Positions 46,216-63,652 of a stretch of 64,000 nt of DNA are shown here, piece after piece. The DNA lies in contig JANQHE010000018.1 of assembly GCA_028282785.1 (NCBI GenBank), positions 1-64,000 of the forward strand. Reading direction: 5' to 3'. Position 1 is the stretch's first letter; every line of letters starts with the position of its first letter. A program made the translations under genes and the position numbers. The notes below the pieces were generated by a model, which saw only the letters and a program-made list of their open reading frames with translations, was not told where the DNA came from and ran no database searches. This DNA comes from Bacteroidales bacterium. GTDB lineage: Bacteria > Bacteroidota > Bacteroidia > Bacteroidales > UBA12077.

Positions 46216-47754
46216 TTAACTACTCCGGGCCTTTTTGAATATAATATTCCAAATAGCCTTCCAAAAATATCTCCAGTCAGTTAGGAATGGACGTTTTAGA
46301 TAAGAATCCAAGTATTTCATTTCTGAAGCTTGAATCTCATCTAATGTTTTTGGTAAATCAACATAAAAGGGAGGAATAAGTCCTGGTTTAGTTTTGGTTC
46401 TTTTTTCTTGCAATTCTTTACTGTACAAACTAAAATAATGCTTACTTAGTGGACGAACTCCCACAATTTTTAAATCGCCTCGCAGCAAATTTATTAACAT
46501 TGGTAATTCATCGATCCAAAATTTTCTAAAAATTTTACCTGCAGTTGTAATTCTAAAATCATCTTTAAATTTTCCTCCTTCCTGCAATTTAGACTTATCG
46601 TAAATATACTCTTGTAAATATTCTGCATAGGGATGCATCGTTCGCAATTTGTAAACGTTAATAATTTTCCCATTTTTACCAACACGGTGCAGTTTTACAA
46701 ATGGCCCGTAAGTAGGCTCCATATCATAAAATGGTTCACGAGTTTTTCTAGCTATATAATATAACCAACCACGTATTTCTCGTTTGGTCACAACTCTAAA
46801 ACCACAAGAATACAAACGCCCGAAGGTTTCAGCTTTAGATATTACGCGATTTTCTCCTCGGGTAAGAAAAAAATATAAACGTTTTGTCAAATTAAATTTT
46901 GGGAGTACTCTTTTTATAATATAATCGAAAAAATAATATATTCGATTCAAAACCAAAGGGTATTTTTTTAATATTCTTTTTTTGCGTTGATCTTTAGTTT
47001 CTACACACCCAATAAAAAAGCCCCCATCAACCAGTTTCCTGTTTACAGACTCAAAGAATTTATTGATAAATCGAATGTCATTTATCCTCTTAAGATTAAC
47101 AATTTTAAGATAAAATTTTTCCGGTAACTTATCTACATTAAATCGAGTTGTTGTTGAAAGTAGTGAGTAGTTTGGAATATTAAGATCAATATTTTCGGAT
47201 AAAAAGTTGAAAACATCGATATTTGATTCTTCAATAATTGTTTCTTTAATATTCTCAGGAACGGGATCGAGAGTATATTCAATTGGATAAATCTCCGTTT
47301 CGGGTATAACATTTAAATGTCCAACAATTTTTTGATACTTTTCAAATACTGCTGATGTATCTGTACTCTTTTTTGCTTGTTTAACAAAATACTCGTTAAT
47401 TGCGAAAATTATTTCAAATAAGGTGGTAAATCCAATTGTACCAAAAACCACCAGACGGGAATATTCAAGAGTACGCAGCATATACATCAGAATAGCAATG
47501 ATACCAGCAATTAATAGATTAACTAAAACCTGATATAAAACAGAATTGGAAAGGCTTGTTCTTTTTGGTGCTGTATATTTTTGAGATATTATTGAAATAA
47601 ATAACCAGATTGAGATAAAAACAATAAATCCGATTGCATACTTAGTAAAGTATGGTTCGGCCTCACCAGGTTTAATCCATAAAATTAATGAAAAAGCTGC
47701 CAGGATGGCGAGTATATCAAATAAAAGGTGAATAAACAGAGAGCGTTTTGTCAT
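46216..47754 (-). CDS. Atypical exopolysaccharide sugar transferase (WcaJ/bacterial sugar transferase-like)
   Basis: N-terminal TM helices; C-terminal KLHRVGKNGKIINVYKLRTMHPYAEYL, FRKFWIDELPMLINLLRGDLKIVGVRPLSKHYF. Confidence 0.85.
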   Translation of the reverse strand: MTKRSLFIHLLFDILAILAAFSLILWIKPGEAEPYFTKYAIGFIVFISIWLFISIISQKYTAPKRTSLSNSVLYQVLVNLLIAGIIAILMYMLRTLEYSRLVVFGTIGFTTLFEIIFAINEYFVKQAKKSTDTSAVFEKYQKIVGHLNVIPETEIYPIEYTLDPVPENIKETIIEESNIDVFNFLSENIDLNIPNYSLLSTTTRFNVDKLPEKFYLKIVNLKRINDIRFINKFFESVNRKLVDGGFFIGCVETKDQRKKRILKKYPLVLNRIYYFFDYIIKRVLPKFNLTKRLYFFLTRGENRVISKAETFGRLYSCGFRVVTKREIRGWLYYIARKTREPFYDMEPTYGPFVKLHRVGKNGKIINVYKLRTMHPYAEYLQEYIYDKSKLQEGGKFKDDFRITTAGKIFRKFWIDELPMLINLLRGDLKIVGVRPLSKHYFSLYSKELQEKRTKTKPGLIPPFYVDLPKTLDEIQASEMKYLDSYLKRPFLTDWRYFWKAIWNIIFKKARSS

Positions 47755-47906: not shown

Positions 47907-48734
47907 TTAATTTCTTAGTTTGTTTAAGAAGTACTTTACCATATTTTTTGTATTCTGCCAAATTAGTTCTTGTATCCAAGGTAATGGCTTATCGGTCCAA
48001 CGTTGAGGATGAAAGGTAAACATTATTTGATTAGGTAATTTTCCTTTTTCAGCTGCGGAAATAATATCGTGGGTTTTCTTAAAACCATGAAAGTATCCTG
48101 TGTTTTCACCTCTTTTTATGACAGGGGATGACAGCACGTTTGATTTATATACTTTGTCTCTTATACTTACCTTTTCACCATTCCACTTACGACCAGTGTC
48201 TGTTAAGTATAGTACCCTCGAAAAATTAATATCGAAGTAAGGTTCTCCAATAATTCCAAAATCTTTATAATTATAATATTTCCATAAAAGTTTGTTATCA
48301 TATTTTGAAAGCGGACTACCATGCATACAGATAGTATTAACCGGGAAGAACTTTCTCAGTTCTTGGAGGTGTTTATCAAATAGTTTTATCGCATGGTTTA
48401 TAATGTCCCTTTCAGTTAATTTTGAACTTTTGTTCACAAGGTCAACATCCTCATAATGATAACCAATTTCATGGCCTAATTTTACTATTTTTTCAATAAT
48501 CTTAGGGTTAAAACTTTCTGAAACGATTCTGAAATAATAACTTCCCTTTATTCCTAACTCATGTTGTATTTGCGCAAAACGAAAAGAATTTTCAGGGAGT
48601 TTATCTACATCGTGACGCAATATTATTGTTTTTTTAGCAGGGCATTTAAGGAATTCTTGAAAAGTTTGGAAAGAATAGTTTTGATTTCTAAGTTTTAATA
48701 TTAGAGTTTTATATGTTTTAAGGGTAAAGTCCAT
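47907..48734 (-). CDS. Polysaccharide deacetylase-like protein
   Basis: TIILRHDVDKLPENSFRFAQIQHELGIKGSYYFR and KLGHEIGYHYEDVDL, NodB-like metal-site motifs. Confidence 0.8.
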   Translation of the reverse strand: MDFTLKTYKTLILKLRNQNYSFQTFQEFLKCPAKKTIILRHDVDKLPENSFRFAQIQHELGIKGSYYFRIVSESFNPKIIEKIVKLGHEIGYHYEDVDLVNKSSKLTERDIINHAIKLFDKHLQELRKFFPVNTICMHGSPLSKYDNKLLWKYYNYKDFGIIGEPYFDINFSRVLYLTDTGRKWNGEKVSIRDKVYKSNVLSSPVIKRGENTGYFHGFKKTHDIISAAEKGKLPNQIMFTFHPQRWTDKPLPWIQELIWQNTKNMVKYFLNKLRN

Positions 48735-48769: not shown

Positions 48770-49240
48770 TTAAGCCATATTTCCTTTTTTCTTTTGAACC
48801 CTGTACAATTCATGCATGGCCTTCCAATCATCAGTGATATGTTCTAATACATGGCTTGATAAAATTATATCATAACTTTCATCCTGAAAAGGAATATTTG
48901 TCATGTCAATTTTTTCATTGCTCTAGCTGATTTCAAATCTGCACTTAGATAGTTTGAAATTTTCAATTTTCTAAATTTCTTATAGAAACAATGTTCGGGA
49001 GCAAAATATAGAACATTAAATTTTTGGTTCGTGAAATTTGTTTCATTACGTTAGAAATAAGAAAAACAGCCTATGCCTAACCCCTGCTCCACAACGAGGG
49101 CAATCTCCTGTGTCAGATTTATAAAACGATTTAAAATTATTATCGCAAACGGGGCAGGTTACATTTGAACCGTAATATCTTAAGGACCTTACAAAATAAA
49201 TAAGGTTGATTATTATATCTCTTGCAAGTCCAGGTGTTAT
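48770..49240 (-). pseudogene. Degraded zinc-ribbon SAM-dependent methyltransferase
   Basis: Minus-strand fragments in shifting frames: RYYGSNVTCPVCDNNFKSFYKSDTGDCPRCGAGVRHRLFFLFLT*, NVLYFAPEHCFYKKFRKLKISNYLSADLKSARAMKKLT*, IDMTNIPFQDESYDIILSSHVLEHITDDWKAMHELYRV; stops at 49046-49048 and 48901-48903; no C-terminus. Confidence 0.88.
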
Positions 49241-49276
49241 ATAACTTTATTTTATACTAAACTTTAGAATTCATAA

Positions 49277-50356
49277 TTATTTAAAATTGTATTGATAATC
49301 AGGTTTTTTTTTCATTACCTGATAACTTTTTGGCCAACTCTGAATAAACCAAACAAGAAAACTTGAAACGTCTATTTTTTTACTTAATAACTCCTTCTGT
49401 TTATTTTTCCACACTTGATTATTTTCATTTTTAATTATTTGAATAGCTTTTTCAATTGCTCTTTTTTGATCATCTTCTGATTCCGAAAAATTGTGGACAA
49501 TTCCATATAGATCTTCCATTTCTTTTGTATAATAACGCCCTGTATTATCTAGATAAATTCCCGGAATGCCTAATACTGCACCTTCCGCTACCATAGTGGC
49601 ACTTTCTCCTACTACTAAAGAAGAAAAAGCAATAGCGTGGTGCATAGTTTCCGGAGATAAAGGATAGCGGTACTTTTCTAATTCGTTGGGAAGTTCTTTT
49701 TCAGAAGAAATAAATACTTTAAGGTAGTTGGAAAGTTTTTTTACCAACAGGGTTTTGTTTTCCAAAGATATTCCTTGATGATTCATATCGTGACTGGCCT
49801 GCCAGCTAACAAAGCGGACAATACAATATTTTTCTTCTGATTTTAAACCTAAATCCTTTATAATTGATTGACAGGGCTTAAATTGATTGGGGTGTAAATA
49901 AGCTAATTCATGATATCCACTATATTTGATGTTGTTTTTCCCCATATAAGGGTGAGCATAGTTTGCAGTTAAAATTGCTTTAGTAAAAGGTTTATATAAT
50001 CTAACTTGTTCAAAATTAAAAGTATCTTCTAACGAGATATGTGGTTTTCTTAAAAGAAAAGCTGCATGAGCAGCATACATCGAACCATGACTTAGAAATA
50101 TATCTGCCTTGAATTTTAAACCAACAATAAACTCTTTAAACCCAAATTCAAATATTCCCCAAATTTTTCCAATAATTGAATTATATTTTTTCCCAAAAGA
50201 TTTATATGGTAAATTGTAATGGTTTAATAAATTTATCTCAAACTCTTTATTTCGACAAGTAAAAAGAACTTCATTCCCTTTTTTTTGCATTTCTAATGCA
50301 AAATATTTAAATAAATGTACATGGGCTGGATGCCCACTATCGATAAGAATTTTCAT
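49277..50356 (-). CDS. DUF354-type glycosyltransferase-like protein
   Basis: MKILIDSGHPAHVHLFKYFALEMQKKGNEVLFTCRNKE, VGESATMVAEGAVLGIPGIYLDNTGRYYT. Confidence 0.85.
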   Translation of the reverse strand: MKILIDSGHPAHVHLFKYFALEMQKKGNEVLFTCRNKEFEINLLNHYNLPYKSFGKKYNSIIGKIWGIFEFGFKEFIVGLKFKADIFLSHGSMYAAHAAFLLRKPHISLEDTFNFEQVRLYKPFTKAILTANYAHPYMGKNNIKYSGYHELAYLHPNQFKPCQSIIKDLGLKSEEKYCIVRFVSWQASHDMNHQGISLENKTLLVKKLSNYLKVFISSEKELPNELEKYRYPLSPETMHHAIAFSSLVVGESATMVAEGAVLGIPGIYLDNTGRYYTKEMEDLYGIVHNFSESEDDQKRAIEKAIQIIKNENNQVWKNKQKELLSKKIDVSSFLVWFIQSWPKSYQVMKKKPDYQYNFK

Positions 50357-52298: not shown

Positions 52299-53347
52299 TT
52301 CCTTAAAAATAGATCAATAGCATTTTCTAATCTCAAATTATAGGATAGATTTATATTAAACATACCTTCTTCAAAAATCCATGTATTATCTTGGTATAAG
52401 AACCTGCCAGGGACACCTTTTTTTTCGCATATATAAGCTTGCACATGGCCGAAAATTGTTTGCATTTCGTTAATTAAATAACCACCTTGCCCATCTTCAA
52501 AAAGGTCTATTGCCATAGAGTTAAAACCATATTTTTCGCAAATGTTTTTTACAAAGTTTAATAATTTTTCAGGAGGCTCAATATAATCAATTCCTTTTGT
52601 ACCGCTTGCTTTATCTCCTTGTTTAACCTTTTGATGTCCAAAATAAGAATTACCTATTTTAACGACTCTCCATTCAAACTCATGTTTAACATATTCCTGA
52701 AGAATAATGAAACCTTTTTGGGTTTCATTATAAAGAGTTTTATACTTATTAAATAGCCTGATAATTTTAGATGGATTTTTTATTATACTTATAATACGTG
52801 ATTTATAAGACCCCATTTTTAAATTTGGCCCATAGTTTTGTCTTAAGCCATTAGTCCCAAAAGCCGCATCAATATATTTTTTAGCTTCACTTAATGATTT
52901 TATAATCTTGACCCCTTTACCAGAAGCTCCTATGTTAAATTTACCTACTATTGGGAATATGTGATTATTAATAAAACCGTATGATTCTTTTTTATCATAA
53001 AAAATATGTGTTTTGGGATGGGGTAATTTGTTTGCCATCAACCAAAAGGATAAGTATCTTTTATTTTCATGTATGGAAACCTCATCAAAATTGGGATAAA
53101 CATATAATTTCATTATTTTATCCAATATATACAACCGCTCATCATAAAGTTTTTTGAATTTACTTTGTATGGAAGATGGGGTGGCAAGAAATAAGTCAAA
53201 ATTATTATTCGTTATTTGTTCGATCCAACTATCTTTAATGAGATTAATAATACTGTAATTGAGCCCTTTAGTTTTGCATGCTTCTACCCACATTAAGTGA
53301 CCACTGTCGGTTTCATTTTTTAGAATAGCAACATGATATTTATCCAT
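52295..53347 (-). CDS. ATP-grasp domain protein
   Basis: FPIVGKFNIGASGKGVKIIKSLSEAKKYI, FIILQEYVKHEFEWRVVKIGNSYFGHQKV, MAIDLFEDGQGGYLINEMQTIFG. Confidence 0.85.
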   Translation of the reverse strand: MDKYHVAILKNETDSGHLMWVEACKTKGLNYSIINLIKDSWIEQITNNNFDLFLATPSSIQSKFKKLYDERLYILDKIMKLYVYPNFDEVSIHENKRYLSFWLMANKLPHPKTHIFYDKKESYGFINNHIFPIVGKFNIGASGKGVKIIKSLSEAKKYIDAAFGTNGLRQNYGPNLKMGSYKSRIISIIKNPSKIIRLFNKYKTLYNETQKGFIILQEYVKHEFEWRVVKIGNSYFGHQKVKQGDKASGTKGIDYIEPPEKLLNFVKNICEKYGFNSMAIDLFEDGQGGYLINEMQTIFGHVQAYICEKKGVPGRFLYQDNTWIFEEGMFNINLSYNLRLENAIDLFLRK

Positions 53348-55097
53348 ATCTAAATTTTTTATAATTAAGGTCTATATTAATAAGATTTGTGAAACGATGC
53401 CAATATGATTCTGTGTTTAAATGATTTTTGTGATTTAAATCAAAAGTGTAACTTTTCTCGTTAAGCAGGGGTTTAATTTCTTTTGAAAGATTAGAAACCA
53501 TATTTTTAACAAATTCTAATGTCCAATCTCTATAAGTAAAACTTTGCGGATATTTTTTTCTTTTAAGATATATTCGATTAAACCGTTTTGCTATGTAAAC
53601 TAATCTGTTTCCTAAGTATTCATTAGCAGTGTAATAACCATTTTTGGCATAAGGTATATTAGATAAATCAAGCGCAAGAATATTGGTAATGTTAATATGT
53701 AAATCGGATTGATTAATTCTGGAAAGAGGATTCTGCGAAGAGTTATTTTTAAACAGCATACTATGCTCAGTTGAGAAAACGATTTCTAGAAAATCGATAT
53801 CCATATATGGGTTTACGGTATATTTTATTTTACTACCAAAGATATTAGTATCTTGTGTATCATGCACTGAACCTACTATATTATACACAAATAAGAATTC
53901 ACGAATTAGTTTTTCGTTATTAATTCTGAACTCAAAATGGTTTATTTTGTCCATAATTTCTTGAATATCATTACTTGAGGACGTAATAAAATTTTTATCC
54001 AGAATTGATTGTATAATTGAATCTAAAGGTTCTTTTGAATATTCTATATGCCGAATAATTTCTGCTGTAATATAATCGTCATAAACAATTCCTTTTAAAT
54101 AATCTCCTCCCATAAAACCGCCCAAGATCATTTCGGTTTCAGGGTTATTTTTAACTTCTTGTTCAATAGCATTTAATCGATGTGCCCTATGTATATTAAT
54201 TAAAGAGTTTCCAAAATCTACTATTTTGTTAGAATATTCCATAAACCAATCTTTAGTTGGATTTGAAACAAAATAATTATTATAGTTTAAATAACTCTTT
54301 TCAGCTAGTGTTTTTGCAATAACACTATCATGCGATAGAGGATTGCCAAAAGAAAATGTGTTTGTATTAATGTTTAAATTTAATAATGAAGCAAGGATCA
54401 TTCTACTATCATTACCTCCCGTTAGTGTTAATGTTATTTTTTTAGGCTTTAGATAGTTTATGTATTGTTGTATAATTTCATTCCATAATTGGCTTAATTC
54501 ATTATAAGAATAGTTTTTTAATTCTTGTTTTGTTAATTCTAATGGAGACCAGTATTGTCTTTCCTCAATTGAGTTAATGAAACTTATAAAACAAGCTGGT
54601 TTGCTATAGTTTACATATTGAAATAACGTGTTGCTATCAATAAAATGTTCCATTAGAAAAAATAAACGTGTATTATTATAATCAACATAAAGAGGAGTTA
54701 ATCTGGAAATATTTTCTAACAGGTTAGTTAGAATAAAAGAGTTATCTTTTTCGTATTTGAAGAATTTCTTTATACTTTGCCTATCATTATAAATTTGAAA
54801 GGTATTGTTTTTAATAATTATGATATTGAATACACCTTTGATATATCTTATAAATTTGTCTCCATATATAGAATAGAGTTCTATTAAGAGGTTATATTGT
54901 TTATAATGTTTGTATTGAAAATAGATATTTTTCCTTGGTAATATATATCCATCAATAATAAACTGAATATTGTTAGTTGTATCAGTTTGAATTTGATAAT
55001 CAGAATAAAATTGATAATTTTTTGATACGTGAGAATATTTAAATTTAGAAAGGTAAGCGCTTTCCAGATTAGTTATTATCCAATTTAAATTTTCCAT
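53340..55097 (-). CDS. Asparagine synthetase-like protein lacking the N-terminal catalytic Cys
   Basis: Synthetase PP-loop LTLTGGNDSRMILASLL; N-terminus MENLNWIITNL has no Met-Cys. Confidence 0.82.
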   Translation of the reverse strand: MENLNWIITNLESAYLSKFKYSHVSKNYQFYSDYQIQTDTTNNIQFIIDGYILPRKNIYFQYKHYKQYNLLIELYSIYGDKFIRYIKGVFNIIIIKNNTFQIYNDRQSIKKFFKYEKDNSFILTNLLENISRLTPLYVDYNNTRLFFLMEHFIDSNTLFQYVNYSKPACFISFINSIEERQYWSPLELTKQELKNYSYNELSQLWNEIIQQYINYLKPKKITLTLTGGNDSRMILASLLNLNINTNTFSFGNPLSHDSVIAKTLAEKSYLNYNNYFVSNPTKDWFMEYSNKIVDFGNSLINIHRAHRLNAIEQEVKNNPETEMILGGFMGGDYLKGIVYDDYITAEIIRHIEYSKEPLDSIIQSILDKNFITSSSNDIQEIMDKINHFEFRINNEKLIREFLFVYNIVGSVHDTQDTNIFGSKIKYTVNPYMDIDFLEIVFSTEHSMLFKNNSSQNPLSRINQSDLHINITNILALDLSNIPYAKNGYYTANEYLGNRLVYIAKRFNRIYLKRKKYPQSFTYRDWTLEFVKNMVSNLSKEIKPLLNEKSYTFDLNHKNHLNTESYWHRFTNLINIDLNYKKFRYG

Positions 55098-60874: not shown

Positions 60875-62090
60875 TGATTGTCGATTTCAGTATTTCTATT
60901 TCTTTTTCAATTCTTTCTTCCCAATCCAGTAGTATTTTATTTGCCAGCAATGATGATTGATCTTTATTTTTTTGCACAACATTTGGATTTGTAATTAAAT
61001 GTTCCAATTCTTTTGTAAGCTCAACCTCACAATTATATCTATCAATAGTAATTATACCGCCATTTAAATATTTATTTGTGGACAAGTCCCTTGATTCATT
61101 ATAATCTGGTTTAAAACTAACAATACAATTTTGTCCATATAATGCTTCCAAAACCGTGTTAGAAAGATTTCCCAAATAATTTAAAGAAACATAGATATCA
61201 GATACCAAATAATATGAATAAATATCAGCATGAGGAATAGAACCGTTTAGAATAATGTTAGGAAAATCCTTTAATGTGTTTTTTATTGAATAAAAATATG
61301 TTCCATCACCAATTATGATTGCAAAAAATTTTTGATTTAATTCGTTAAGTTTAATGATTGATTTAACGAATTCATGTATTCCTTTATCGGCTTCTAGTCT
61401 TCCAACAAATAATATAATTGGAATGCCTTGGAGAATATTATGCTTCTTTCTTATATCAATTGAATTACAAAAGCTCTTTTTACTTATACCATTTAACATG
61501 ACTGTTTTTGGAGTAGAGGGTGAAGTGTATTTTTCTAAAAATTGGAATACAGGAGTTCCATCTTCACTTGAAATAATGTGATCAAATTTAACTTTAAAAC
61601 TATAATACCTAATAAAATTCCTAATTTTGTAATACCTATTTTTAAATAGAACAAAATGTGTTGTAATTCCATGTAATCTTAAAACTACTTTTTTTTGAGT
61701 AAATATTTTAAATAGAGCTCCAATAAATACATTTGCTCTGTCTACATAAATAATATTATAATTATTCTTTTTACATAAACGATAACTAAATATAAAATTA
61801 GAAATGCTGAAAGCTAAATTCGAGAATATCTTAAATACTAAAACATTATCAAGTTTAGATAAAATATTTGGTTTATTTAATATGTGAAAATCTGCAATAA
61901 AGGGCTTTACCTTCACTATTTTATAATTGTTATTGTCGTTGTTTATGAGAATGCTATCGAATAGTATGTTGGTTTTATGAAGTTTTTCGAAAAGCTTCGA
62001 AATAGCCGGCATACCTTCCGGATTCCAGGATTTTTCATATACAGATTTTCTTAGTGCGGAGTAAAAACTTGTAATGAATAAAACTTTCAC
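60867..62090 (-). CDS. GT4-type glycosyltransferase
   Basis: PIILFVGRLEADKGIHEFVKSIIKL, FAIIIGDGTYFYSIK, VSLNYLGNLSNTVLEALYGQNCIVSFK. Confidence 0.9.
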   Translation of the reverse strand: MKVLFITSFYSALRKSVYEKSWNPEGMPAISKLFEKLHKTNILFDSILINNDNNNYKIVKVKPFIADFHILNKPNILSKLDNVLVFKIFSNLAFSISNFIFSYRLCKKNNYNIIYVDRANVFIGALFKIFTQKKVVLRLHGITTHFVLFKNRYYKIRNFIRYYSFKVKFDHIISSEDGTPVFQFLEKYTSPSTPKTVMLNGISKKSFCNSIDIRKKHNILQGIPIILFVGRLEADKGIHEFVKSIIKLNELNQKFFAIIIGDGTYFYSIKNTLKDFPNIILNGSIPHADIYSYYLVSDIYVSLNYLGNLSNTVLEALYGQNCIVSFKPDYNESRDLSTNKYLNGGIITIDRYNCEVELTKELEHLITNPNVVQKNKDQSSLLANKILLDWEERIEKEIEILKSTINE

Positions 62091-63652
62091 AAATTTTTCT
62101 TTAAATAGGTTTCAACAAGAAAAGAATTAATGTTCTGATAATTATTTCTTTTACGAAGAAAAGTAAGGTAATCATATATACCATACCAACCCATTTTATC
62201 ATTGAAATAAACGATATATTTTTTCTTTAAGCTATTAATTTTTGACTTTACCAATTGCTTTAAATCTAAAATGTTCGTTTTTTTAACTGATTCAGATAAA
62301 GATGAACTAGCATATGGTATATCCTCAAATAGTTTTATTTCGTCATGTTTTTTTAGTAAAATTAAATAGAGTGTTTTTTTTACTTTGAGAGTTAGTGGAA
62401 TTTTTAACCAAAAATCAACTAATTCTCGATCCCAAAGTGGCAGGTACCACGAGTACTTGAAGAAATCATATGCTCTAACCGAATTAACTATGAACTTTGA
62501 TTGTCGCTCCTGCCAATCAAATAATTCCATCAGAAATGCGTGATCCATTTTTTCAGGATGATATTGAATAAATTCAGTTACGCAAGTTTTAACTGCTAAT
62601 TGTTCTTTGGTGCTTGAATTTTTAAAATTTAAAAGCCTAAAATGTTTACCAATAATTTTTTTTGATAAAAATTCAATGTTTTGATTTTTTGGATTTATAA
62701 ATTCTTGAGGAACATGGCCGCCACTAATGAAATCACCCGTATGACCTGGAATTATAATAGAATCGTCTGGTATAATTTTGTTTTTTTTTAACTCATATAC
62801 TGCTAACAAATCCTGAATATGTGGGAGTGAAGACAAATTGTCAGCAAATTGGAAATATTGCTTAAAGACGTTGCTTTTTTTAAAATTACGCCACTTCTTA
62901 TTTGAATATTCAATAAAATGCCAAATATAACCAAGTTTTTTTGCGATTTCCTGACTTTTAATCGACTCTAAATTACCTTTTTTACCGTAAGAATAACAAA
63001 TGACATTTTTATAATTAAGCTTTTTTAATTCTGATACAATAAGCCGGGAATCTATACCGCCACTTAATGGAATTAACAAGGTTTTGCCATTTGCATAACT
63101 AATAAGCCTTTTAAATATTTGCTTTAGTAATCTGTTATGTTTATTAGGTAGGTGTGTGATGCTAACAGATTCGGGATAGGTAATATATTTAAAATAACTG
63201 GTAGTACTGTATTCAAATATACCTTGATTATATACTCCTTCAAGAATACAGCCAGGTAATAATTGTTTAATATTTACATTTAGTGTTTTATTTCCAGAGG
63301 TAAATCCAGAATAACGAAATTCGTTTATGGCATTTTGACCATAAGATTTATCAACATATTTTTCCAGTATTCTGGCATTATCGCTTAGAAAAATTCCTGT
63401 TTTGTTAACAGAATAAAAAACCGGATAGCTTCTTACAATATCTGTGCAAGCAAAAACTTTATCTTTATTTATAAAAACAAAACTAAACTGTCCGTTCTGA
63501 GGTATTCTAATTTTACTATGTAAAAACTCCTTAAATAAATTGTTGAAATTTCCAATAGCATTACCTTCCCAAAAGAAACCATTATATAAAAGAACTTTAC
63601 CATCTTTTTTAAGGATAGATCCTGCCCAGTGCCATATAATATTATTTGACAT
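62087..63652 (-). CDS. Asparagine synthetase-like protein lacking the N-terminal catalytic Cys (second paralogue)
   Basis: LLIPLSGGIDSRLIVSELKKLNYKNVICYSYG PP-loop; N-terminus MSNNIIWHWAGSILKK without Met-Cys. Confidence 0.85.
   Translation of the reverse strand: MSNNIIWHWAGSILKKDGKVLLYNGFFWEGNAIGNFNNLFKEFLHSKIRIPQNGQFSFVFINKDKVFACTDIVRSYPVFYSVNKTGIFLSDNARILEKYVDKSYGQNAINEFRYSGFTSGNKTLNVNIKQLLPGCILEGVYNQGIFEYSTTSYFKYITYPESVSITHLPNKHNRLLKQIFKRLISYANGKTLLIPLSGGIDSRLIVSELKKLNYKNVICYSYGKKGNLESIKSQEIAKKLGYIWHFIEYSNKKWRNFKKSNVFKQYFQFADNLSSLPHIQDLLAVYELKKNKIIPDDSIIIPGHTGDFISGGHVPQEFINPKNQNIEFLSKKIIGKHFRLLNFKNSSTKEQLAVKTCVTEFIQYHPEKMDHAFLMELFDWQERQSKFIVNSVRAYDFFKYSWYLPLWDRELVDFWLKIPLTLKVKKTLYLILLKKHDEIKLFEDIPYASSSLSESVKKTNILDLKQLVKSKINSLKKKYIVYFNDKMGWYGIYDYLTFLRKRNNYQNINSFLVETYLKKNL

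Follow-up and report, generated by a model that had tools for sequence, protein, structure and literature searches.

A zinc-ribbon methyltransferase pseudogene in the polysaccharide locus of a Bacteroidales bacterium

What fills the widest gap in the closely packed polysaccharide locus of a Bacteroidales bacterium? The window analysed here, a stretch of 64,000 nucleotides from contig JANQHE010000018.1, contains an intact initiating sugar transferase gene that marks the locus (46216-47754, minus strand; PF02397, E 1.2e-24), together with genes for several glycosyltransferases, FemAB-like, ATP-grasp-like and asparagine-synthase-like proteins. Two of the last kind are present, at 53340-55097, which matches TIGR01536, and at 62087-63652, which was assigned by eye alone. 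Between 43.9 and 64 kb all other genes are open and lie nearly back to back, and the only gap longer than 152 nt is one of 542 nt, bounded by intact minus-strand genes for a DUF354 family protein (49277-50356; PF04007, E 6e-13) and a polysaccharide deacetylase-like protein (47907-48734; weak TIGR02764 match). At 49274-48735 of the minus strand, between these two neighbours, lies the dead gene of a zinc-ribbon class I SAM methyltransferase. The initial annotation had proposed a methyltransferase pseudogene in the polysaccharide locus, and this is borne out by the PF08241 match, by a six-frame match and by the lesions found in comparison with an intact relative. We place at about 93% the probability that the sequence is a non-functional relic of an accessory gene that belonged to a surface-polysaccharide locus and once encoded a protein of about 250 residues; the homology, the lesions and the gene order behind this reading were observed directly.

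The core piece of the remnant alone matches PF08241 with an E value of 3e-12 and 47.5 bits, the curated cut-off being 21.2. The same profile, run against the genome translated in six frames, recovers this piece at 45 bits, also above the cut-off. Because of these two matches the core piece is no chance resemblance, and the homology of the remnant to methyltransferases is real. The N-terminal ribbon carries two cysteine pairs, CPVC and CPRC, that align with intact relatives. End-to-end DNA alignment with an intact 750-nt gene on DAOVJU010000170.1, from a metagenome-assembled genome labelled Chlorobiota (hereafter L032), gave 71% identity over 529 aligned bases and set the limits of the old gene at an ATG at 49274 and an original TAA at 48737-48735. 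The extent first proposed, 48770-49240, does contain remains of the gene and was too short in both directions. Where a working gene would have about 250 codons in one open frame, the remnant is broken by an early stop, by frame changes and by an internal deletion. The remnant is a homologue of zinc-ribbon class I SAM methyltransferases and not a working member of them.

Frame reading and alignment to L032 allowed the successive pieces of the old gene to be followed along the minus strand. The old start and first codons (49257-49274) run into an early in-frame stop (49259-49257), after which the frame changes. The zinc-ribbon piece (CPVC...CPRC; 49049-49246) follows in frame 0, the cofactor-binding piece NVLYFAPEHCFYKKFRKLKISNYLSADLKS (VLYFAPE...YLSADL; 48904-49050) in frame 1, and the core methyltransferase piece identified by PF08241 (DMTNIPFQ...SHVLEH...HELYRV; 48773-48922) in frame 0 again. 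All three peptides were thus located in the order, and in different frames, in which they had first been described. Compared with L032, the remnant carries at least five separate lesions. To the early in-frame stop are added at least three frame changes, and about 211 nt are deleted from the interior of the gene near 48795. The frame changes fall within the first 40 bases, near 49050-49018 and near 48916, and small indels in variable stretches escape individual dating or exact placement, the nearest intact relative standing at 71% DNA identity. The deletion removes about 70 residues of the old protein of some 250, and its approximate junction (48794-48795), placed by alignment to L032 in A-rich sequence, is uncertain by some 20 nt. 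In comparison with PF08241 members, the remnant is left without most of the part that follows the methyltransferase core and without a continuous frame. The true early in-frame stop had been missed by the initial annotation, which had named stops at 49048-49046 and 48903-48901. Both of these are present, and they flank the cofactor-binding piece because of the frame changes; they are out of frame and consequences of those changes. The run of six T on the plus strand at 48910 was confirmed.

The statement that the gene has no C-terminal part did not hold. Across the deletion of about 211 nt, the 3' end is present at 48782-48735, where alignment to L032 identifies the native C-terminal end KYGLSENGIIYFCTK and a stop codon that directly adjoins the deacetylase ATG at 48734. 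The old gene still has its final 15 codons and its own stop. Compared with the C-terminus of the L032 protein, KYGLSENGIIYFCTK scores 70; the highest score was 38 among 2000 shuffles and 46 among 4246 other stretches of the window. We infer that this 3' end persists because the deacetylase leader lies within it.

A scan of named genomes found at least 461 places encoding a relative. The intact L032 protein (249 aa) is the closest intact relative among the matches listed, with about 66% amino acid identity to the remnant over readable codons. Homology between the two extends over the whole length, and in both cases a DUF354 gene lies upstream and deacetylase-like sequence lies downstream. The DUF354 gene of L032, whose product is 53% identical to that of the window, ends two bases upstream of the methyltransferase start, a spacing identical to that in the window, and an N-terminal deacetylase fragment begins 33 bases downstream of the methyltransferase gene. 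Because L032 shares both flanks, the remnant probably occupies the ancestral gene order. In contrast to the window, the methyltransferase of L032 is intact and the adjacent deacetylase copy is fragmentary. This fragment (L032:1273-1509) encodes 78 aa and is 41% identical over 64 aa to the window deacetylase, and a fuller copy, 61% identical to that of the window, lies at L032:6237-6980; decay in L032 is the mirror image of that in the window. In the tree, the remnant groups with L032 and then with the gene of Flavihumibacter solisilvae (L033), with 100/99 support at each fork. The Flavihumibacter methyltransferase, which belongs to the same clade and lies in a polysaccharide locus beside a sugar transferase and further glycan genes, differs from the remnant in being intact (258 aa, about 48% identical), and no DUF354 match was found near it. 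Another relative (L035) is also located among glycan genes. The plasmid search returned distant relatives only, the best being 43% identical, and the literature search found no paper on this zinc-ribbon methyltransferase subfamily.

An intact gene might have been broken in the record by sequencing or assembly errors, given that the genome is a draft in 81 contigs and that one frame change falls at a six-base homopolymer. This would have to account for at least five separate lesions within 540 nt, one of them the deletion of about 211 nt, in a neighbourhood whose genes are open over 20 kb; the early stop and the deletion are beyond what homopolymer error can make. Sequence error is not a likely cause, since the surrounding genes between 43.9 and 64 kb are uninterrupted and very closely spaced, and we regard it as very improbable. 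The phase or strain-level variation suggested by the initial annotation, with the gene merely switched off at present, draws on the six-base A/T runs and on the frequency of variation in polysaccharide loci. For the gene to be switched back on, however, a number of separate events would be needed and the deleted DNA would have to come back, which slippage cannot bring about; such repeats as occur there are short and imperfect. The genome yielded no close intact copy elsewhere, the next match being confined to the core (43% over 42 residues). A single reversible switch by repeat tract, inversion or donor cassette was not found: the gene has several lesions, and neither a donor copy nor suitable repeats came to light. 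The lesions and the failure to find a close donor copy in the genome speak against phase variation, to which we give still less credence than to error; what the remnant shows is the ordinary decay of a gene, not a switch. Scarcely credible, finally, is a rearranged gene that still yields a short functional product, for example a free-standing zinc-ribbon peptide. All four ribbon cysteines are intact, but no ATG, GTG or TTG start occurs in the ribbon frame, and the frame that opens at the old start codon stops after five codons.

For ordinary gene decay, the age of the loss can be approached through the differences from L032. By codon position 1/2/3 these amount to 0.25/0.17/0.54 in the remnant and to 0.26/0.19/0.56 in the intact deacetylase neighbour, a third-codon bias which indicates that most of the divergence from L032 accrued under coding constraint. 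Of 61 family-conserved sites, the remnant departs from 18 and L032 from 14, which amounts to slight extra decay only. The branch of the remnant in the tree (0.58) is about three times longer than that of L032 (0.19), with the uncertainty that attaches to the branch length of a fragmentary row. Taken together, the third-codon bias, the conserved-site count and the longer branch suggest a loss that was fairly recent, followed by some free drift. The recent loss first proposed is therefore supported by the retained coding signature, but it was not brand new. The gene would have stopped being needed and then accumulated the early stop, small indels and the internal deletion. Through this decay the order of the genes was preserved, as was the 3' end directly before the deacetylase start codon.

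The family had also been described as common in surface-polysaccharide loci, which was overstated. Among the 80 best named relatives, an M24 peptidase gene is nearby in 58 and a glycosyltransferase or sugar-transferase neighbour was detected in 12, with no overlap; the latter count is a lower bound, as neighbours were recognised through their similarity to a small set of seed proteins. As a whole, the family is not bound to polysaccharide loci. Relatives with the M24 peptidase gene nearby (for example L053:5156-6747) are mostly from Flavobacteriaceae and have no glycosyltransferase match, and these homologues may have a different, conserved role. No characterised close relative was found, and the best solved structure, 1vl5, is a partial match (E 1.3e-5). 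Judged from gene context, the old enzyme probably acted on a sugar or other glycan component, and the step that it encoded would have been lost from this glycan.

The analysis adds a pseudogene missed by annotation and suggests that the surface glycan of this species is without a modification that may be present in bacteria whose copy of the gene is intact. As a further example of gene turnover in polysaccharide loci, it leaves the general picture unchanged. The methyltransferase is dead in the window and the adjacent deacetylase copy is fragmentary in L032, from which one might suppose that surface-glycan decoration is repeatedly gained and lost, neighbouring decoration genes decaying in turn across lineages, for example under phage pressure; we consider this rather unlikely.

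Within the genus, deacetylase homologues with 66-72% identity occur in five genomes. In the genus genomes examined, the deacetylase gene is preceded by other genes or directly by DUF354, and no methyltransferase of the remnant's kind was found between the two. Two methyltransferase homologues from the same genus (G022 and G024) were rejected as orthologues, as they fall in a distant clade of the tree and lie in other contexts. At L164:1931-4862 (G027:C22), the deacetylase gene is flanked by DUF354 genes on both sides, without a methyltransferase.
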